In this document: positions 24,651-42,159 of the stretch, piece by piece | Layout: each line of letters begins with the position of its first letter | How positions within the stretch are numbered: the first letter of the stretch is position 1 | The notes under the pieces: model-generated | Told to the model about the DNA's origin: nothing | The model's input: only the letters and a program-made list of their open reading frames with translations | Databases searched by the model: none | Source: Streptococcus sp. X13SY08 | GTDB taxonomy: Bacteria > Bacillota > Bacilli > Lactobacillales > Streptococcaceae | DNA: 64,000 bases | NCBI RefSeq assembly: GCF_001182825.2 | Contig: NZ_LFYO02000002.1 | Span: forward strand, 248,001-312,000 | Reading direction: 5' to 3' | Made by a program: the position numbers and the translations under genes

Positions 24651-24812
24651 GATTACATTGAGAAAAGCAGAAGTGAGAGCTTCTCGCCTTGCGACTAACG
24701 TTGTCTGGCTCTACGTGTAAAAGATTTCTTAGGAAATATAGACTGTAGAGACGGACTTGTGAAGCAAGTCCGTTTCGTTTTTCTCGAAAAAATAAAAAAT
24801 GAGGTGAAAGCC
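24651..24812 (+). promoter_or_regulatory. infC leader with attenuator-like hairpin
   Basis: The ~150-nt untranslated leader ends in a perfect stem acggacttg / caagtccgt (24751-24773) followed by a T-rich run, i.e. a terminator placed before infC. infC-rpmI-rplT leaders in Firmicutes are known to be controlled by L20 through premature termination. I infer the same here, but did not verify the L20-binding fold. Confidence 0.7.
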
Positions 24813-29670: not shown

Positions 29671-30347
29671 AAATAGTTGTTCCATTTATGCCGAGAAGTA
29701 TGGAAGAGGTAGAGGCCTTAGATATAGAACGCCTAGCAGACGCAGACTTGATTGAATGGCGTGCCGACTATCTTCCTAAAGAGGAAATTTTACGAGTGGC
29801 GCCAGCTGTTTTTGAAAAATTGCTTGGACGTGAAGTTATTTTTACACTGCGTACAATACATGAAGGTGGACAAATTGATTTGACCGATCAAGAGTACGTT
29901 GACTTAATTAAGGAAGTTGCAACACTCTACCAGCCTGATTTTATTGATTTTGAGTATTATTCACACAAAGATGTCTTTGACCAAATGTTAGAATTTCCAA
30001 ATTTGGTACTTTCTTATCACAATTTTGAGGAAACGCCTGAGAATTACATGGAAATCATGTCTGAGTTGACCAGCCTTTCACCAGCTGTTGTTAAAATTGC
30101 CGTCATGCCACAAACGGAGCAGGATGTTTTGGATGTGATGAACTATACGCGCGGTTTTAAAACTTTAAATACGGGTCAGATGTATGCAACGATTTCCATG
30201 GGGAAATTAGGCATGCTATCCCGCTTGTCTGGAAAATTAACAGGTTCTTGTTGGACCTTTGCTAGCTTAGACGAAGAGAGTGTACCAGGTCAGATTTCCC
30301 TTCGTCATATCAAGAAGTTTTTGGAAATATTGGACAGTGAAAATTAG
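29667..30347 (+). CDS. aroD: 3-dehydroquinate dehydratase, type I
   Basis: Shikimate-pathway enzyme (226 residues) converting 3-dehydroquinate to 3-dehydroshikimate. The type I features are present: EWRADYL near residue 31, a catalytic His in LSYHNFEE (about 118), Schiff-base Lys in VVKIAVMP (about 144) and the [11 protein letters not shown] segment. The ATGA overlap with the methyltransferase suggests co-transcription. Aromatic amino-acid relevance fits the transporter operons downstream, though that is only proximity. Confidence 0.94.
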
Positions 30348-30368
30348 GAAATAGAAAAGAGGATTCGT

Positions 30369-30707
30369 ATGACACAAAATATTTATGATCTTGCTAATGA
30401 ATTAGAACGTAGCATTCGTCACTTACCAGAATATGAAGCCGTTCAAGCTTCACGCAAGGAAATTGAGGCAGACAAAGATGCAAAAGAGTTGTTGGATCAG
30501 TACATTTCTCATCAGACTGAATTGCAACAAGTTTTGCAGACAGGACAAATGCCTTCTGAAGATTTCCAAAAAAACATGCAGGACCTAGGTCAAAAAATTC
30601 AAGAAAATCCGTTACTGACAGAGTATTTTGGTAAACAACAGCAATTGTCTATCTATATTGCAGATATTGAGAAGATTATCTTCAAACCGTTACAAGACTT
30701 GATTTAA
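30369..30707 (+). CDS. YlbF/YmcA (YheA-like, UPF0342) family protein
   Basis: 112-residue all-helical protein with YDLANELERSIRHLPEY and KDAKELLDQY, typical of the YheA/UPF0342 branch of the YlbF superfamily. Cytosolic; the role in streptococci is not established. GAGGATTC precedes the ATG. Its stop codon lies inside the terminator hairpin. Confidence 0.85.
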   Translation: MTQNIYDLANELERSIRHLPEYEAVQASRKEIEADKDAKELLDQYISHQTELQQVLQTGQMPSEDFQKNMQDLGQKIQENPLLTEYFGKQQQLSIYIADIEKIIFKPLQDLI

Positions 30708-30720
30708 CAAGTCTTTTTTC
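30694..30720 (+). terminator. Rho-independent terminator
   Basis: aagacttg / caagtctt stem followed by T5; it contains the stop codon of the preceding gene in its loop. Confidence 0.8.
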
Positions 30721-30770
30721 TTTGCAAGCGGGTATCATTTAAAAAGTAGGAAAAAATATTCAGAAAATTG

Positions 30771-30798
30771 TTGACAAATGAGAAAAAAGGTTTATCAT
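30771..30798 (+). promoter_or_regulatory. Promoter of the attenuated ABC transporter operon
   Basis: TTGACA (30771-30776), 16-bp spacer, TATCAT (30793-30798). Confidence 0.75.
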
Positions 30799-30837
30799 CT
30801 TACTAACCTATAAAAAATAAGAAGAGAGAAACGGAAC

Positions 30838-30900
30838 ATGAAACAAGTAAGTCGAAGCCTTTCAACGAGTCATCGTTATTACTACAGCTATTTTAGATAG
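30838..30900 (+). CDS. Tyrosine-rich leader peptide
   Basis: A 20-codon ORF starting ATG AAA CAA and ending SHRYYYSYFR-TAG. Four of its last seven sense codons are Tyr (three consecutive at 30877-30885) and one is Phe. It lies between a good promoter and a chain of alternative hairpins ending in a 16-bp terminator, which is the layout of ribosome-mediated attenuation. The GGAAC five bases before the ATG is a weak ribosome site. The codon content suggests sensing of charged tRNA-Tyr. This is inference from layout. Confidence 0.75.
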   Translation: MKQVSRSLSTSHRYYYSYFR

Positions 30901-31098
30901 TGTTTGTAGACATGCGAGTCATGGATGCAAACACGTTGAACGTTATGTTTGTATCTATGTGGCTTTGGTTATTCGACGTGTGTCCACATTAGATAAGAAA
31001 ATCTAAATGGGCGCTGGTAACTCTTCTGTTTCTTTGCATACAGAAATAAGGGACTGTTTAGATTTTTATATCTAAACAGTCCCTTATTTTTATACTTT
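30900..31098 (+). promoter_or_regulatory. Attenuator: overlapping hairpins ending in a terminator
   Basis: Helix 1: GTGTTTG 30900-30906 with CAAACAC 30928-30934. Helix 2 (excludes 1): GATGCAAACA 30924-30933 with TGTTTGTATC 30946-30955. Helix 3 (shares 30953-30955 with 2): ATCTATGTGG 30953-30962 with CCACATTAGAT 30984-30994. Helix 4 (excludes 3): 30984-30994 with ATCTAAATGG 31001-31010. Antiterminator (excludes 4): ATCTAAA 31001-31007 with TTTAGAT 31057-31063. Terminator: 16-bp perfect stem 31048-31063 with 31070-31085, then a T-rich tail. Each pairing was read by eye; no folding energy was calculated. Confidence 0.75.
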
Positions 31099-31142
31099 TT
31101 TCTTCCAAATTTCCTTCTAATTATTCAAAAAGGAGAACTTTT

Positions 31143-32107
31143 ATGAATTTTAAACGATTTACACTGATTTCTTTTGCTGCTTTATCTACTTTTGGTCTAG
31201 TGGCATGTGGAGCCGATTCTTCGGATGTTTCTTCTGAAAAAGTATCAGTTGGGATAATTCAATATGCTGAACATGAGGCGTTGGATTTGTCAAAAGATGG
31301 CTTTTTAGAAGCACTAGAGGATGCCGGTTACAAGGAAGGCAATAATTTGACAGTTGATTTTCAAAATGCTCAGGGAGATCAGGCTAATTTGCAGACCATG
31401 GTGGATCAGTTAGCAAGAGAGCATGATCTTAACTTTGCCATTGCAACACCAGCAGCACAAGCTATGCTGAATGTGGATACTGAAACACCATCTGTCTTTA
31501 CAGCAGTAACAGATCCTATAGGTGCAGAATTAGTGGATTCTCTAGAAAAACCTGGCGGCAACATGACAGGATCTATTGATGCCACAGATGTGAGTGGTCA
31601 GATTGATATGTTGGTCAAGGTCGTATCAGCTGTCAAGAAAGCTGGAATTTTCTATAATTCAAGTGAGGTCAAATCATCGAAAAAGCTAAAGAAGCACAAA
31701 AAGCATTGGAAGATAAGGGAATTGAAGTGGTCGTGAAGACCGTCACCTCTACCAATGATATGCAACAGGTCATGACTTCCCTTGCTAACCAAGTTGATGC
31801 TCTTTACTTTCCAACAGATAATACGGTGGCTTCGACAGCAACAACCATCGGAGAAATTCTTATGGAAGCAAAAGTTCCAGCTATGGGAAGTGACGAAGCG
31901 GTGATTGATGGCGTCCTCTTTACTTACGGAGTGGATTATCATGCTATTGGTGTTCAAGCTGGTAAATTGGCAGTGGAAATCTTAAAAGGTGCGAATCCTG
32001 CGGACTTAGCGGTTGCAACTCCTGAAAAAGCGGCTATTGCAGTCAATGGGGAAATGGCGAAAGCTGTTGGTATTGATACTGCAACAATTAAAAATTTGAA
32101 TAAATAG
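31143..32107 (+). pseudogene. ABC transporter substrate-binding lipoprotein (TrpX-like), frameshifted
   Basis: ABC_sub_bind family lipoprotein. The signal peptide ends in the lipobox LVACG (Cys about residue 23), followed by VGIIQYAEHEALD and ATPAAQAML, both typical of this family. The frame breaks near 31665-31680 after FYNSSEV; the rest (IIEKAKEAQ... to TIKNLNK, stop 32105-32107) is intact in another frame. A short deletion there, possibly between gaggt repeats, would explain it. First of two adjacent substrate-binding genes behind the tyrosine attenuator. Confidence 0.8.
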
Positions 32108-32123
32108 ACTTGGAGATATTCTT

Positions 32124-33109
32124 ATGAACTATACTTGGATAAAAAAATACTTGCCATTTCACTTGTGGGACTTTCAGCGTCTGCTTTGGTTGCATGCAGC
32201 GATAGTAGCACAGAAAAATTTGATAGCAATGGTACAAAAGAAGTAAAAGTTGGTATTTTACAATATATGGAGCATGAATCCTTGGATGCAGCGCGTGAGG
32301 GATTTATGGCTGAGTTGAAAGCTAATGGGTACAAAGAAGGTGACAATATAACAGTAGATTATCAAAATGCCCAAGGGGATCAAGCCAACTTGCAAACTAT
32401 TTCGGAACAATTGGTGGGTGATAATGATGTGATTTTAGCGATTGCAACACCAGCAGCACAAAGTTTGGCAACTGTATCAACAGATGTTCCCGTCCTCTTT
32501 ACTGCAGTAACAGACCCTGTTTCAGCAGAATTGGTGGATTCTATGGATAAACCTGATGGTCTATTGACGGGGACAAGTGACCAAGCGCCGATTGATAAGC
32601 AGATTGAACTCTTGGGACAGGCACTTCCAGATGCGAAAAAAGTTGGTATTTTATACACCACTAGCGAGCGGAATTCAGAAGCTCAGGTAGAACAAGCTGA
32701 GAAACTACTCAAAAATGCAGGTTACGAAGTGGAGTTGAAAGGTATTACTTCCACAAATGATGTGCAAGATGCTACAACTAGCTTGATGAAGGATGTGGAT
32801 GCAGTCTTCGTTCCGACGGATAATACAGTTGCTTCTACTATGACCATGATTGGTGAATTGTCCATCGAGCACAAGGTGCCTGTTATTGGTGGGGCAACTG
32901 ATATGGTGGATGCTGGTGGTCTCTTGACTTATGGCACCAACTACGAAGCACTTGGTCACCAGACTGCTAAAATGGCTGTTAAAGTACTTGAGGGAGCAGA
33001 TCCTGCTGCATTGTCAGTTGAATATCCAGAAACAGTTGATTTGCATGTCAACCAAGAAATAGCTGACAAGTTAGGAATCAATGTTTCAAAACTCTCTGTT
33101 TCAAAATAA
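32124..33109 (+). CDS. ABC transporter substrate-binding lipoprotein (TrpX-like), start uncertain
   Basis: Intact ABC_sub_bind protein of about 324 residues with lipobox LVACS, VGILQYMEHESLD and LAIATPAAQSL. The open frame starts at TTG 32135, which has no good ribosome site. The ATG at 32124 is well placed behind GGAG but reaches the frame only if the A7 run (32141-32147) had eight As, giving MNYTWIKKILAISLVG. Either TTG is used or there is a one-base error or mutation. It is a tandem paralogue of the preceding broken gene. Confidence 0.85.
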
Positions 33110-33128
33110 GAACTAATCAGAAAGGAAA

Positions 33129-34019
33129 ATGACTGTGGACATCATATTATCAAGTATATCGCAAGGACTCTTGTGGTCCATTATGGCGATTGGGGTTTAT
33201 TTGACCTATCGTATTTTAGACATCGCTGATTTGACAGCAGAAGGAGCGTATCCACTTGGAGCTGCGATATGTGCGATAGCAATCGTTAGCGGACTCAATC
33301 CATTTTTGGCAACACTTTTGGCTATTATTGGAGGCATGTTAGCTGGTTTGGTATCAGGATTGCTTCATACCAAGATGAAAATTCCAGCCCTTTTAACAGG
33401 GATTGTGACCTTGACAGCTCTTTACTCCATTAACTTAAAAGTATTAGGGAAAGCCAATGTTGCTCTCTTGCGAAAAGAAACCTTGGTGACAGCTTTGCAA
33501 GATGCTGGATTATCAAAAACGAATGCTATTTTGTTGATCGGCGCGATTGCGGTAGTCGTTGTGGTTTTATTCTTGACCATATTGTTAAAAACGCAAGTCG
33601 GTTTGGCGCTGCGATCAACAGGTGACAATATTCCTATGAGTGAAGCTAATGGTATCCAAGTGGATCGTATGAAAATTTACGGCTATATGTTATCCAATGG
33701 TCTCATTGCACTTAGCGGTGCTCTTTTAACACAAAATAATGGCTACGCAGATGTCAATTCGGGGACTGGTACGATTGTTATTGGTTTAGCATCTGTCATT
33801 ATTGCAGAAGTCGTCATTCGTAATTTGACGATTGGCTGGCGATTGGCATCTGTAGTCTTTGGCTCTATTTTGTATCGTTTGATTATCCTAGCAATCTTGG
33901 AAATTCCTGGTATGGATGCGGATTTGGTGAAATTATTCTCCGCGATTCTCTTAGCAGCTGTACTATTTATTCCAGAAATGCAGAAAAAATTGAAAATCCG
34001 TCAGTTGAATTGGAAGTAG
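33129..34019 (+). CDS. ABC transporter permease (TrpY-like)
   Basis: 296-residue permease of the branched-chain-type BPD_transp_2 family, with about eight hydrophobic helices. It starts LLWSIMAIGVYLTYRILDIADLTAEGAYPLG, cut here to its recognisable core LTYRILDIADLTAEG. It pairs with the substrate-binding lipoproteins upstream and the ATPase downstream. Intact, with AAAGGAAA before the ATG. Confidence 0.88.
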   Translation: MTVDIILSSISQGLLWSIMAIGVYLTYRILDIADLTAEGAYPLGAAICAIAIVSGLNPFLATLLAIIGGMLAGLVSGLLHTKMKIPALLTGIVTLTALYSINLKVLGKANVALLRKETLVTALQDAGLSKTNAILLIGAIAVVVVVLFLTILLKTQVGLALRSTGDNIPMSEANGIQVDRMKIYGYMLSNGLIALSGALLTQNNGYADVNSGTGTIVIGLASVIIAEVVIRNLTIGWRLASVVFGSILYRLIILAILEIPGMDADLVKLFSAILLAAVLFIPEMQKKLKIRQLNWK

Positions 34020-34027
34020 GAGGAAGT

Positions 34028-34733
34028 ATGGCAACAATTTTATCTATTCAAGGAATTCACAAGACCTTTGAAGCTGGTACAATCAATGAAAATCATGGGC
34101 AGGAACGCTTTCAGTGGATCAAGGAGATATTCTTTTGGAGGGAAAACCGATTAAGAACCTCTCCGCTGTCAAACGTTCTAAGGATATCAGCCGGGTTTTC
34201 CAAGATCCAAAAATGGGGACTGCTTCACGGTTGACCATTGAAGAAAATATGGCCATTGCTTATCATCGTGGGCAAAAACGTAATCTGAGTTGGGGTGTGA
34301 AAGAGCCAGAACGCGCTATTTTGTGGAAGCGCTCAAAGAATTAGGTCTTGGCTTGGAAAATCGTCTAAAGGTCGATACCCAGTTTCTCTCTGGTGGTCAG
34401 CGACAAGCATTGACGCTTCTTATGGCTTCTTTGGTCAAACCAAAAGTTCTTCTTTTGGATGAGCATACAGCCGCTTTGGATCCTAAAACTAGTGATATGG
34501 TCATGGGATTGACCAAGAAGATTGTCGAGACACATCAATTGACTAGTCTCATGATTACCCATAATATGGAAAATGCCATCCAATACGGAAATCGTTTGGT
34601 CATGCTGCATCAAGGTCAGATTGTCGTGGATGTCAAAGGTGAAGAAAAAGCTAATTTAACTGTGCAAGATTTAATGGAACTCTTCCACAAAAATAGCGGA
34701 CAAGTGTTGACAAGTGATGAATTGATTCTGTAA
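34028..34733 (+). pseudogene. ABC transporter ATPase (TrpZ-like), Walker A lost
   Basis: Starts MATILSIQGIHKTF. After INENH (about 34095) about 30 residues, including the Walker A P-loop expected by alignment to the paralogue at 39022, are absent; GTLSVDQGDILLEGK follows in another frame. A second shift at 34317-34325 (one T missing in ATTTT) separates KEPERA from FVEALKELG. The signature LSGGQRQALTLL and Walker B VLLLDEHTAALD are present downstream to 34733. Without Walker A the product could not bind ATP normally. Confidence 0.85.
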
Positions 34734-36697: not shown

Positions 36698-36726
36698 TTG
36701 ACAAAATTTTACTCATAAGTTATACT
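36698..36726 (+). promoter_or_regulatory. Promoter of the T-box controlled operon
   Basis: TTGACA (36698-36703), 17-bp spacer, TATACT (36721-36726). Confidence 0.9.
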
Positions 36727-36734
36727 TTTCCTTA

Positions 36735-36983
36735 ATCAGAAAAGTAAACAAACAAAGTTTTCAGGGAGCTGACGGATATTGCGAGTCAGTAGCGAAGTTT
36801 GTTGAAATGGGCTGATGGGATATAATGAATGAAAAACAATGATCATTCGGTAGGCACACCTTACAGTGCAACTCCTTGTTAGAGGAGATGAGATAGAAGG
36901 GCTAATTCTAGACAATTCCTTCTAAGTGAGGTGGCACCGTGTCATTGACGCCCTCGCATAGTTAATCTATGCGAGGGCTTTTA
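36735..36983 (+). promoter_or_regulatory. T-box leader, UGG (Trp) specifier
   Basis: Stem I base atcag (36735-36739) pairs with ctgat (36812-36816). The specifier loop has AGTA on the 5' side and GAAATGG on the 3' side, giving UGG (36808-36810) as specifier. AGGGAG and the distal stem ctgac/gtcag follow the usual order. The T-box sequence aagtgaggtggcaccgtg is at 36924-36941, and the terminator gccctcgcata / tatgcgagggc at 36950-36978 with a T tract. It should permit transcription when tRNA-Trp is uncharged. Confidence 0.92.
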
Positions 36984-37179
36984 CTATTTGTGGAGAAAGG
37001 AATTGAATCCGTCCGGCAAATTCGGAAAATCATAGCCCGTTACTGAAATCAGGATTTCAGACGGTCTCCTATTTTTCAGTCATTTGCTAATCGGACTTGG
37101 TATCTTAATTATGAAACGATGGCGCAGTTTGCAAAGAGTGATTAGTGAATGAGGACATTTTAAATGAAAGAAGAAATAT

Positions 37180-38184
37180 ATGAAAAATAAAAAATTAATA
37201 GGAATTATAATAGCCATGTTAATAGCATTGGGACTTGAGATTTTCTTAGCACCGTCAAATGAGAATGAAATGGAACAAACAAACGAGAAAAAAACAGTCA
37301 AAGTAGGTGTCTTGCAATTTGTCACGCATGCCTCTTTAGATGAGATTTACAATGGTATTAAAGAAGGTCTCAAAGAAGGTGGTTACGAGGAACAAACCAA
37401 TTTGGAAATTGATTTCATGAATGCTGAGGGAGATCAATCGCAAGTGCAAACGATGAGTCATCAATTGGTCAATAATGGCAACGAGCTATTGATTGGAATT
37501 GCGACGCCAGCAGCGCAAGGGCTGGCAAATGCGACCACTGACTTTCCCATTATCATGGGAGCGGTGACCGATCCGATCGGAGCTAATTTGGTCACAGATT
37601 TAAAACATCCTGACGGCAATATCACAGGGGTTTCTGATCAAACGCCGGTCGTAGATGAGGTGAAATTGATGAAGGAAATCACGCCAGAAGCCAAAACAAT
37701 CGGAGTTTTGTATTCGTCAAATGAAGATAATTCAAAAATTCAAGTAGAAGAATTTGTAGCTGCGGCTGAAAAAGCTGGCTATGTCGTTGAAGAATTCGCA
37801 GTGCCATCGACCAATGAAATTGCGGCGACAGTTGAAGTCATGACTTCAAAAGTAGATGTCATCTTTACACCGATTGATAACACGATTGCGTCCGCATTTT
37901 CAACTGTAGTATCAGGAGCTAATAAAACAAAAACTCCAATCTTTACCAGTGTAGAGGATATGGTTGAAGGTGGAGGGATTGCTTCAGTGACGCTTAGCCA
38001 ATTTGACCTTGGTGTGGCAACTGGAAAAATGGCGGCTAAAGTCTTAGACGGTGATAAACCAGCGAATACGCCAGTCCAAATTTTCAATGAAGGGACTATT
38101 GTGGTTAACCAAAAAGTGGCAGAAGAACTAGGGATTACTTTGCCAGAAGCCGTATTGAAAAAGGCTAGTCGTGTCGTAGAATAA
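37180..38184 (+). CDS. trpX: Tryptophan-linked ABC transporter substrate-binding protein, TrpX
   Basis: 334-residue ABC_sub_bind protein. Paralogue of the two lipoproteins at 31-33 kb (VGVLQFVTHASLD, IGIATPAAQGL). Unlike them it has no lipobox cysteine; the N-terminal hydrophobic stretch (about 5-25) may act as a membrane anchor or be cleaved otherwise. The T-box with Trp specifier upstream makes tryptophan or a precursor the likely substrate. The preceding 37000-37150 stretch has a ctgaaatc/gatttcag hairpin and no gene. Confidence 0.88.
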   Translation: MKNKKLIGIIIAMLIALGLEIFLAPSNENEMEQTNEKKTVKVGVLQFVTHASLDEIYNGIKEGLKEGGYEEQTNLEIDFMNAEGDQSQVQTMSHQLVNNGNELLIGIATPAAQGLANATTDFPIIMGAVTDPIGANLVTDLKHPDGNITGVSDQTPVVDEVKLMKEITPEAKTIGVLYSSNEDNSKIQVEEFVAAAEKAGYVVEEFAVPSTNEIAATVEVMTSKVDVIFTPIDNTIASAFSTVVSGANKTKTPIFTSVEDMVEGGGIASVTLSQFDLGVATGKMAAKVLDGDKPANTPVQIFNEGTIVVNQKVAEELGITLPEAVLKKASRVVE

Positions 38185-38204: not shown

Positions 38205-39025
38205 ATGATTGTATCAACTATTTCTCAAGGTCTACTCTGGACTGTTTTGAGTCTGGGAATCTTTATGACCTTTCGGATTTTGAAATTTCCAGATATGACG
38301 ACAGAGGGCTCTTTTCCATTAGGTGGGGCCGTTGCGGTCACTTTGTTAACAAATGGTGTCCATCCTATTTTAGCAACACTTGTGGCGATGATAGCGGGTT
38401 GTCTTGCAGGTTTGGTAACCGGACTTCTTTATACGAAAGGAAAGATTCCAACCATTTTGGCAGGAATTTTGGTGATGACATCTTGCCATTCTATTATGCT
38501 CATGATTATGGGGCGGGCTAATTTGGGTCTTCTCCATCGCTCAGTGATTCAAGATTTGTTGCCATTTTCTGATTCCATCAATAGCTTGCTACTGGGCTTC
38601 ATTAGTGTGGTTCTCGTCATCGGTCTTATGTATTTCTTCCTCCATACTCGTTTGGGACAGGCTTACATCGCAACAGGTGACAATCCTGATATGGCGCGTA
38701 GCTTTGGTGTCCATACTAGCAAAATGGAACTGATGGGTCTGGTGGTGTCAAATGGAATTATCGCACTTGCTGGGGCATTGATCGCTCAGCAGGACGGATT
38801 AGTCTTGTGATCGGCGAAGTCCTCTTTGGAAATCCGACTATGCTAGAGCGTCTCATAGCTATTGCAGTTGGAGCTATCCTCTATCAATTCCTGATTTTGG
38901 CAGTTATTCTCATGGGCGTCAATACCAGCTATCTTCGTATCTTCTCAGCCATTATTTTGGCAGCTTGCCTTATGATTCCTGAGTTCAAAGAAAAAGTTTT
39001 GAAAGGAGTGAAGCTGACACGATGA
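38205..39025 (+). pseudogene. trpY: TrpY-like ABC permease with internal deletion
   Basis: Permease of the same family as 33129-34019. The first 201 residues are intact to LIAQQDG. The expected segment corresponding to YADVNSGTGTIVIGLA of the paralogue is missing, and the frame ends in TGA at 38808. The remaining C-terminus (LVIGEVLFGNPTM to KGVKLTR) follows in another frame. Loss of about 46 bp is inferred. The stop overlaps trpZ by 4 nt. Confidence 0.85.
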
Positions 39026-40565: not shown

Positions 40566-42159
40566 GCGATATTAAAATTATTGCTTTGGGTGGTGTGCGG
40601 GAGAACGGTAAAAATCTCTACATCGCCGAAGTAGATGAGCACATTTTTGTGCTAGATGCAGGGCTTAAATACCCTGAAAATGAACAGTTGGGTGTGGACG
40701 TTATTGTTCCTAACTTTGACTATTTGGAAGAAAACAAGGATCGTGTTGCGGGTATCTTCTTGACGCACGGACATGCGGATGCCATTGGTGCTCTTCCTTA
40801 CTTGCTAGAAAAAGTCAAAGTGCCAGTTTTTGGATCTCATTTGACAATCGAATTGGCTAAGCTAGTCGTCAAAAACTACGCTGCCACTAAGAAATTTAAT
40901 GATTTCCATGTTATCAATTCTAAGGCAGAAATTGATTTTGGTGGACCAGTCATTTCTTTTTTCAAGACAACACACTCTATTCCAGAAAGTCTAGGAATTG
41001 TTGTCAAAACGGATGAAGGAAATATTGTCTATACAGGTGATTTCAAGTTTGACCAGGCTGCCAATCTATTTTACAGGACTGATTTTGCTCGTTTAGCAGA
41101 AATCGGCCGTGAAGGTGTCTTGGCGCTCTTGTCTGATTCATCCAATGCGGATAGTAATGTTCAAGTAGCTAGCATGCATGAAGAAGCTGAAGAAATTTTT
41201 GATACCATTGCAGATTGGGATGGTCGTGTCATTGTGGCTGCGGTGGCAAGTAACATTGCCCGTATTCAACAGATTTCCGCACAGCTATTTCTCTCAAAAA
41301 ATTGCACTTGGTTAGCGAGAAATTATTGATTAAACCAAAAGAAATGAATAAGTTTGACGACAGCGAACTCATTATTTTGGAGACAGGTCGCATGGGTGAG
41401 CCACTAGAGGGACTTCGTAAGATGTCTGTTGGTCGCCATCGTTATGTGGAAATCAAGGATGGAGACCTAGTTTTCATCGTTACAACGCCAAGTATTTCCA
41501 AGGAAGCTGTTGTAGCTAAAGTTGAGAATATGATCTACCAAGCGGGTGGTGTGGTTAAATCTATCACTAAAAACTTGCGGGTATCTGGTCATGGGAATGC
41601 GCGTGATTTGCAGCTTATGCTCAATATTCTTCGTCCAAAATTTCTCTTCCCAGTTCAAGGTGAATACCGTCAGTTGGATGCGCATGCAACAGCTGCACTA
41701 GAAATTGGTCACTTGCCAGAAAATATTTTCATCGTTAAGCGTGGTGATGTCATGCACTATGAAGAAGGTGACTTTGTCCATAATGGGGCTGTTCCAGCTG
41801 GTGACGTCATGATTGATGGAAATGCCATGGGTGATGTGGGGAATATCGTTCTTCGTGACCGCAAGATTTTATCAGAAGACGGGATTTTCATCGTGGCAAT
41901 CACAGTTAACCGGAAAGAAAAGAAAATTATTTCCAAGGCCAAGGTCCATACGCGTGGATTTGTCTATGTTAAGAAAAGTAAGGATATTTTGCGTGAGGCA
42001 TCTGATTTGGTCAATACATCGGTGGAAAATTACTTCACAAAAGATACCTTTGATTGGGGTGAATTGAAGGGAGCGGTGCGCGATGATTTATCCAAGTTCT
42101 TATACGATCAGACAAAGCGTCGTCCATCTATTTTGCCAGTAATTATGGAAGTTCGGTAA
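40562..42159 (+). pseudogene. rnjB: Ribonuclease J (J2-like) with internal frameshifting deletion
   Basis: Metallo-beta-lactamase/beta-CASP RNase central to mRNA decay. The N-terminal half is intact: the HGHADAIG metal motif, HSIPES, TGDFKFDQ and SDSSNA. After VASNIARIQQ (about 41272) roughly 20 residues expected before TAI-LKKLHLV are absent and the frame ends in NY-stop at 41329. LHLVSEKLLIKPKEM to ILPVIMEVR continues in another frame (from about 41302). RNases J are essential or nearly so in streptococci, so an assembly error is likely. AGAAGG precedes the ATG. Confidence 0.85.

Follow-up and report, generated by a model that had tools for sequence, protein, structure and literature searches.

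The leader lies within a 64,000-nucleotide stretch of DNA from Streptococcus sp. X13SY08 (hereafter, the window), between a YlbF/YmcA-family gene on its 5' side (30369-30707) and a PF04392-type ABC operon on its 3' side (31143-34733), the latter encoding a pair of substrate-binding proteins (SBPs) along with a permease and an ATPase (Table 1). The leader peptide itself, MKQVSRSLSTSHRYYYSYFR, terminates in HRYYYSYFR, and its regulatory codons are Y14, Y15 and Y16 (30877-30885), together with Y18 and F19. Frameshifts affect not only the first SBP gene and the ATPase gene of this operon, but also a second permease gene (38205-39000), and two overlapping ORFs at 41302-41329 are what we take to be a split RNase J gene; given that several of these frameshifts hit conserved genes, they suggest errors of assembly rather than decay. 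The window additionally contains a ribosomal protein L20 leader (RF00558) at 24659-24787.

Table 1. Features of the leader and of the operon that follows it, in window coordinates
Feature	Coordinates	Strand	Remarks
Promoter TTGACA-16-TATCAT	30771-30798	+	11/12 consensus matches
Leader peptide ORF	30838-30900	+	20 codons
P1 5' arm	30883-30899	+	Codon 16 to UA of stop codon; RNAalifold and pair counts
P1 3' arm	30952-30967	+	Pair counts; own versus swapped arm pairing
Segment 1	30900-30914	+	H1 5' arm; UA to CG compensatory change in H1
Segment 2	30920-30934	+	H1 3' arm and H2 5' arm
Segment 3	30946-30962	+	H2 3' arm (30946-30959); overlaps P1 3' arm and H3 5' arm
Segment 4'	30980-30995	+	H3 3' arm and H4 5' arm
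Segment 4	30997-31014	+	H4 3' arm (31001-31014) and antiterminator 5' arm (30997-31010)
Segment 5	31042-31067	+	Terminator 5' arm (31042-31063) and antiterminator 3' arm (31054-31067)
Segment 6	31070-31097	+	Terminator 3' arm and U-rich tail
Helix H1	30900-30914/30920-30934
Helix H2	30920-30933/30946-30959
Helix H3	around 30952-30962/30984-30995
Helix H4	30980-30994/31001-31014
Antiterminator	30997-31010/31054-31067
Terminator	31042-31063/31070-31091		22 bp
First PF04392 SBP gene	31143-32107	+	Frameshifted in assembly
Second PF04392 SBP gene	32135-33109	+
Permease gene (BPD_transp_2)	33129-34019	+
ABC ATPase gene	34010-34733	+	Frameshifted in assembly

Over 30300-31500, promoter-like matches were no more frequent than in shuffled sequence (4 versus a mean of 4.0); a promoter-like site nevertheless lies within 95 bases upstream of each of the 62 unique leaders, all from the streptococcal set, for which the upstream sequence is long enough, against an expectation of 10.3 from shuffles. 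Shine–Dalgarno-like motifs precede 156 of the 180 leader ORFs chosen across all the taxa considered below, albeit the choice of ORF itself made some use of that motif. The variability of codon positions within the leader ORFs gave no sign of coding selection, and we regard this measure as uninformative on the question of translation.

A first-pass annotation of the locus, made from sequence alone, had described a promoter, a 20-codon ORF, a chain of helices and a terminator ahead of the ABC operon, with each helix sharing a stretch of bases with the next. This arrangement held, and the shared stretches match the coordinates that we computed. The list of helices held only in part, as it omitted P1, an extra competitor in the chain: RNAalifold, applied to 36 leaders, returned H1 together with P1, whose two arms are the stretch from codon 16 to the stop codon and the 3' half of helix 2. 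Segment 3, on which several pairings converge, contains the nearly invariant GUUUGUAUCUAUG. The folding energy of the leader is far below that of shuffled sequences (z = -7.7), much of which must be supplied by the long terminator hairpin; a hairpin of this kind is present in all 80 unique streptococcal leaders.

Among relatives, the leader motif was found in 78 of 80 loci fetched by way of their permease genes; in the other two, the contig starts approximately 1 kb ahead of the match to the permease. A DNA search gave matches in 133 of the 284 genomes from the genus (the genome of the window itself and a few weak or incomplete matches are among them), and it overlooked diverged copies such as those present in S. 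agalactiae and S. thoraltensis. Both the ORF and the conservation of its codons are directly observed: none of the 62 unique leaders in the streptococcal set, which takes in a Gemella locus (L035), lacks Tyr/Phe codons; at one further locus (L008) the automatic selection step yielded no ORF, although one is readable in a separate reading. The peptides combine a variable N-terminus with a constant aromatic end, the latter reading YYYSYFR, YFYSYFR, YFYGYFR, FYFSYFR, YYFSFFR or FEFSFFR in streptococci, and YYYSYY in Gemella. Sensing of Tyr only, as first proposed, was rejected, given that Tyr and Phe occur side by side in relatives and that certain leaders contain Phe without Tyr (FFFSFF); the proposal of attenuation is supported, with the refinement that the codons are those for both Tyr and Phe. 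The same annotation held that a lack of conservation of the Tyr codons or of the paired bases among related streptococci would refute it; this check was run and did not do so. In S. hyovaginalis (L050:2128-3850) and S. thoraltensis (L053:855-2641), two leaders occur within one cluster; those of the latter read FFNFSFFR and YYYFGFFR, respectively, a hint of separate Phe and Tyr control.

The P1 and H1 pairs covary. Opposite codon 16, the 3' arm of P1 offers GTA to TAC, AAA or AAG to TTT, and ATA to TAT; as the arm tracks the pairing of this codon, changes from Tyr to Phe are compensated there. Three P1 pairs have changed on both sides in 15, 17 and 13 sequences, respectively, and one H1 pair has done so in 10. 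In alignment A2, 98.7% of the P1/H1 cells are paired, compared with 26-54% for slid structures, and 55 cells are changed on both sides, compared with 20.8 in shuffled alignments (none of 500 shuffles was as high); in this alignment, neither the number of pairs with a both-side change (4) nor that of pair types (17) exceeded the shuffles. Wider alignments gave both-side changes at 11 and 19 of 23 pairs, versus 3.0 and 11.1 when shuffled, and alignment A4, the second of these, contains 255 both-side-changed cells, versus 63 when shuffled; the wider sets, A4 included, were aligned to the structure model and are, therefore, biased toward it. When 5' arms were paired with 3' arms from other leaders, the P1 energy rose from -12.25 to -8.01 ± 0.20 kcal/mol (148 non-redundant arm pairs, all groups), and the P1 5' arms of branched-chain leaders, described below, scored -10.3 with their own 3' arms versus -6.1 with those of Tyr/Phe leaders. 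For leaders with Trp codons, the swap test gives P1 no support (own -6.8, swapped -6.8; n = 3).

The complementarity of the other helices is also shown, with differing kinds of support. In 46 non-redundant streptococcal leaders, the energies of H4, H3 and the antiterminator are -16.0, -12.8 and -12.0 kcal/mol, respectively, versus -9.4, -8.9 and -7.1 after shuffling, and the own pairing is stronger than every one of 20 shuffles in 70, 46 and 57% of these leaders, respectively. Swapping between species weakens the antiterminator (-12.0 versus -10.05 ± 0.28 kcal/mol), and brings no such difference for H3, where the own partner (-12.8) gains nothing over that of another species (-12.6 ± 0.2). H2 is paired in 96.6% of cases, yet shows no compensatory changes. 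For the streptococcal set, one hallmark of an attenuator, a mutually exclusive antiterminator and intrinsic terminator, is met.

Tyr/Phe leaders served to build a covariance model (R1; 102 positions), which under-counts leaders with other codons. The model matches 242 of 395 sampled Lactobacillales genomes, in 58 of 80 genera and at up to five places per genome; across the class, 35 of 398 sampled genomes matched, five of which lie outside the order. The first-pass annotation considered ribosome-mediated attenuation to be uncommon in Firmicutes; this particular device is not rare, being spread over the order and present in Rfam as a supposed small RNA (RF02863). From one batch of 86 R1 hits, five that repeated other loci were omitted; an antisense chance hit (L244:320-408) was excluded, and identical leaders were merged. 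One locus (L188) is absent from the counts; its peptide ends SFYFSFFR and the downstream protein looks like an SBP, such that it would join the Tyr/Phe class. Read together with the streptococcal loci, 119 model hits gave 180 unique leaders (118 + 62).

Within this collection, the codon class follows the class of the downstream gene. In 149 of 161 cases, the gene behind a Tyr/Phe leader serves aromatic transport or synthesis, the products comprising 126 PF04392-type SBPs, two permeases, 15 AroB, AroC, AroE or AroF proteins, one PheA, two MFS-chorismate mutase proteins and three PatA-like aminotransferases (for which an aromatic role is assumed). Those with Ile, Leu or Val codons all precede branched-chain genes (15/15), namely, IlvA (2), IlvB (1, with a leader reading LLISVIR), IlvE (4) and LivJ-type SBPs (8). 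Trp codons occur in four leaders, with the endings IWQSWHR and RWQGWHR, which all stand ahead of a TrpX-type SBP and are the weakest of the R1 matches (E about 0.003-0.006). No Tyr/Phe leader (0/161) precedes a gene assigned to the branched-chain or Trp class. For the remaining 12 Tyr/Phe leaders, an aromatic link of the downstream gene is unproven or the gene is unassigned: three DASS-like transporters, six polar-type SBP proteins, one D-lactate-dehydrogenase-like protein and two without assignment.

Some of these associations merit listing in their own right. DASS-like transporters (L227, L230 and L243) and polar-type SBP/permease proteins (L238, L246, L250, L252, L262 and L272) are found under Tyr/Phe leaders, as is an MFS-like transporter that carries a chorismate-mutase domain (L255 and L256; in L256, the domain match is below the family cut-off). 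At L237, a D-lactate-dehydrogenase-family gene, possibly encoding an aromatic 2-hydroxyacid enzyme, follows a Phe-type leader reading VFFNSNFR.

Gene names derive from NCBIfam matches of 20 representatives, followed by BLAST to those. The curated cut-off was passed for AroE, AroC, AroF, IlvA, IlvB, IlvE and the dehydrogenase; below it remained (bits obtained/required) the LivJ-type proteins (149-178/477), TrpX (352/390), PheA (188/219), AroB (56/305), the chorismate mutase (60/71) and the DASS-like proteins (73/199). Since R1 was itself built on Tyr/Phe leaders, the correspondence was re-read using a scaffold pattern blind to the codons, which found 35 places in 75 genomes and none when reversed; the genomes were hand-picked among those with model hits and are not a random sample. 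We read 34 of these places; 31 of them are distinct, and many were already part of the model set. Tyr/Phe codons occur at 18 of the 31, ahead of 16 aromatic SBPs, one polar-type SBP and one dehydrogenase, and branched-chain codons at the other 13, all ahead of LivJ, IlvA, IlvB or IlvE, with zero cross-over. Two further hallmarks of an attenuator are also present, namely, a short ORF carrying codons for the regulated amino acid, whose translation is inferred, and downstream genes of the matching pathway. As the leaders share descent, and one operon can contribute as many as three SBPs to the counts, neither the permutation results nor the ratios should be taken as strict probabilities.

The SBPs themselves offer independent evidence on the substrate. 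In this family, a Gln at one position of the ligand pocket admits Trp, whereas a Tyr excludes it (PMC6816091). Of 172 aligned SBPs, the 168 that lie under Tyr/Phe leaders all have Tyr (156) or Phe (12) at this position, and the four under Trp leaders all have Gln; a second ligand-pocket residue showed no clear pattern with respect to Tyr or Phe codons. The window contains a second PF04392-type operon (36722-38184), which is preceded by a T-box (36722-36958; 97.1 bits) whose specifier, as read from the sequence, we take to be Trp, and the pocket residue of its SBP is Gln. It is, therefore, likely, albeit inferred from sequence, that paralogous importers only 6 kb apart have been split between sensors, with a T-box for Trp and the leader for Tyr/Phe. 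Control of the leader's own operon by a T-box was rejected for want of an upstream match: the RF00230 model found nothing within 30700-31200 at E values up to 5, nor in the loci of six relatives up to E 0.5. In S. suis, a Trp T-box upstream of trpXYZ acts by transcription attenuation (PMC9382623); we take this T-box to belong to the paralogous operon, as at window 36722, although the S. suis gene was matched to neither copy. A tandem arrangement of T-box and leader, an idea prompted by the same paper, was dropped for want of T-box matches.

We consider it very likely, in the absence of any expression, termination or ribosome data, that the leader is a ribosome-mediated transcription attenuator, reading the charging of Tyr- and Phe-tRNA to control a Tyr/Phe-type ABC importer. 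The comparative evidence for attenuation of this kind, which the first-pass annotation had already proposed, is strong, consisting of codon conservation, covariation of P1 and H1, and the joint change of codon and pathway; it is by inference that the ORF is taken to be translated, the ribosome to stall, the helices to exchange in a given order and the operon to respond. In the absence of a ribosome, or once it has gone, the segment from codon 16 to the stop codon would pair with segment 3 to form P1, enclosing H1, which would leave segment 4' free to pair with segment 4 (H4), and the terminator would form. With charged Tyr- and Phe-tRNA, a ribosome at the stop codon would mask segment 1, such that segments 2 and 3 pair (H2), again leading via H4 to termination. 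A ribosome stalled on the Tyr/Phe codons would instead mask the 5' arm of P1 and leave segment 1 exposed, so that H1 persists; segment 3 would then pair with segment 4' (H3), and segment 4 with the 5' arm of the terminator (the antiterminator), to give readthrough into the operon. The predicted polarity is, therefore, that H1, H3 and the antiterminator signify readthrough, whereas P1 or H2, followed by H4 and the terminator, signify a stop. In other Lactobacillales, the same scaffold bears Ile, Leu/Ile/Val or Trp codons and stands ahead of other amino-acid genes.

Equilibrium folding was simulated with the RNA taken to be free from 13 bases past the first base of the A-site codon, a value assumed for the ribosome footprint. 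Under this footprint model, a ribosome on codons 14-16 masks part of the 5' arm of P1 and leaves H1 exposed, whereas one at the stop codon masks most of the 5' arm of H1. Averaged over 42 non-redundant streptococcal leaders, the antiterminator has, at the decision point, a probability of 0.55 when no ribosome is present and 0.68 with one at the stop codon, compared with 0.86 when the A site is on codons -6 to -4 (0.83-0.88 over -7 to -3, where three aromatic codons are followed by Ser and a further aromatic codon); it is lower, at 0.73, on the Phe/Tyr codon at -2, and also high on the Ser codon at -4, both of which count against the model. The stalled state exceeds the stop state in 29 of the 42 leaders and falls below it in four, with a mean difference of 0.17, versus 0.003-0.04 in five shuffled sets. 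Relative to no ribosome, the gain upon stalling is 0.31, versus 0.08-0.15 with shuffled cores; given that the latter reproduce a part of it, that part requires no special core.

For the window's own leader, the antiterminator probability rises from 0.00 without a ribosome to 0.10, 0.30, 0.90 and 0.93 for stalls at Y14, Y15, Y16 and Y18, respectively, and is 0.24 at the stop codon. With stalls at Y16 and Y18, however, H2 (0.61 and 0.84, respectively) outweighs H1, and H3 never forms in the equilibrium folding of the window alone. Such folding, therefore, backs the outcome, in that a stall favours the antiterminator, and not the proposed path, which would need a co-transcriptional order of events that is inferred. 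We reject equilibrium folding as a proof of the relay for the window alone, retaining it only as an average over leaders, and, because the window departs from the proposed path, our confidence in the mechanism, and in the bolder reading given below, is slightly reduced.

Three other explanations deserve consideration, each of which we judge to be very unlikely. The leader might work by nascent-peptide arrest, as TnaC does, with a C-terminal ..SYFR and free Tyr or Phe as co-effector causing the ribosome to stall. The strong conservation of the C-terminal residues within streptococci speaks for this; against it, endings such as ISIIR, LISVIR, QSWHR and NSNFR occur on the same scaffold and are matched to other genes, the N-terminal part of the peptide is variable, and the conserved AGC and TAGATA bases are accounted for by P1 pairing. 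Alternatively, the conserved H1/H2 core could be a metabolite riboswitch that binds an aromatic compound, the ORF being incidental. Its core is indeed highly conserved, with the nearly invariant GUUUGUAUCUAUG; but one core is common to the aromatic, branched-chain and Trp gene classes while the codons of the ORF change, and three competing pairings of segment 3 can account for the conservation.

The remaining possibility, a trans-acting small RNA, follows from the filing in Rfam, where the sole family found for the scaffold is RF02863, sRNA_2410 ('Enterococcus sRNA 2410'), which by name we take to be the sRNA_2410 of E. faecium. The window matches this family at 34.5 bits (E 5e-4), short of the gathering score of 61, which none of six relatives passes either; within one related family, however, nine of 14 genomes pass it, and RF02863 and R1 coincide at 20 of 20 places in those 14 genomes. 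By these matches, it is the same RNA as the window's leader, although filed as an sRNA gene. The E. faecium RNA is 195 nt in length and gives two transcripts on Northern blots (PMC5593968), and its stability at about this length favours a role in trans; the relevant parts of that paper give no function. Against this, 178 of the 180 unique leaders have a same-strand downstream ORF similar to one of the 20 reference proteins, nearly all of which belong to amino-acid transport or synthesis, and no streptococcal leader lacks a terminator-like hairpin. Two transcripts are also what a terminated leader would give, which speaks for the attenuator; it cannot be excluded that such a terminated leader acts additionally in trans. 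We retain the ribosome-mediated attenuator as the preferred reading.

The enterobacterial trp and his attenuators consist of a leader ORF with codons of the pathway and a mutually exclusive antiterminator and terminator, and the Lactobacillales leader has both elements in common with them. Unlike these, it would, in the proposed model, need H1 (segments 1 and 2) for readthrough, part of its regulatory codons forms one arm of P1, and a single scaffold recurs with swapped codons across the order. The his leader, too, is a multi-helix chain, so the relay as such is not new. The Leu/phe leader of Lactococcus (RF01743; PMC2864571) is by name a leader-peptide class, yet kinship with it was rejected by model searches in both directions: RF01743 has no match in the window up to E 5, its matches falling in other genera of the same family, and R1 matched none of six RF01743 loci even at E 10.

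Among Firmicutes and their relatives, leader-peptide attenuation has also been shown or predicted for Rli60 of Listeria (PMC5864092), the Leu attenuator of S. aureus ilv (PMC5794164), the His leader of Bacillus hisZ/hisS* (PMC2965389) and the aroF uORF of Acholeplasma (PMC8632094). These are single operons or narrow taxa, unlike the order-wide scaffold, although their sequences were not compared with R1; the relevant parts of the four papers do not describe the R1 scaffold. The Trp T-box before trpXYZ likewise attenuates transcription of a PF04392-type operon, a paralogous copy, but senses uncharged tRNA directly, unlike a leader-peptide device. We found no description of the scaffold as an attenuator in the titles and abstracts of the open-access literature searched; subscription journals were mostly outside this search, and a prior description is not excluded.

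Overall, we conclude that the leader is likely to represent a known kind of regulation, newly seen as an order-wide variant with exchangeable codons. A bolder reading, which we favour only by a narrow margin, is that one ancestral scaffold has spread in the Lactobacillales as a general sensor of amino acids and acquired its specificities through swaps of codons and P1 arms, with only a parked ribosome giving readthrough, whereas one that is absent or has finished would permit termination by way of P1 or H2; the codon swap would resemble the change of T-box specificity through the specifier codon. In the Firmicutes literature that we searched, leader-peptide attenuation appears as scattered cases and T-boxes dominate the control of amino-acid genes. 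If our reading is correct, a whole order would possess an attenuator family on one RNA scaffold, with a specificity readable from its codons, and the Rfam 'sRNA' would gain a role. The leader would, moreover, predict an aromatic substrate or link for the DASS-like and polar-type ABC proteins, and the family would provide a natural codon-swap series with which to test how the position of the ribosome steers RNA folding.
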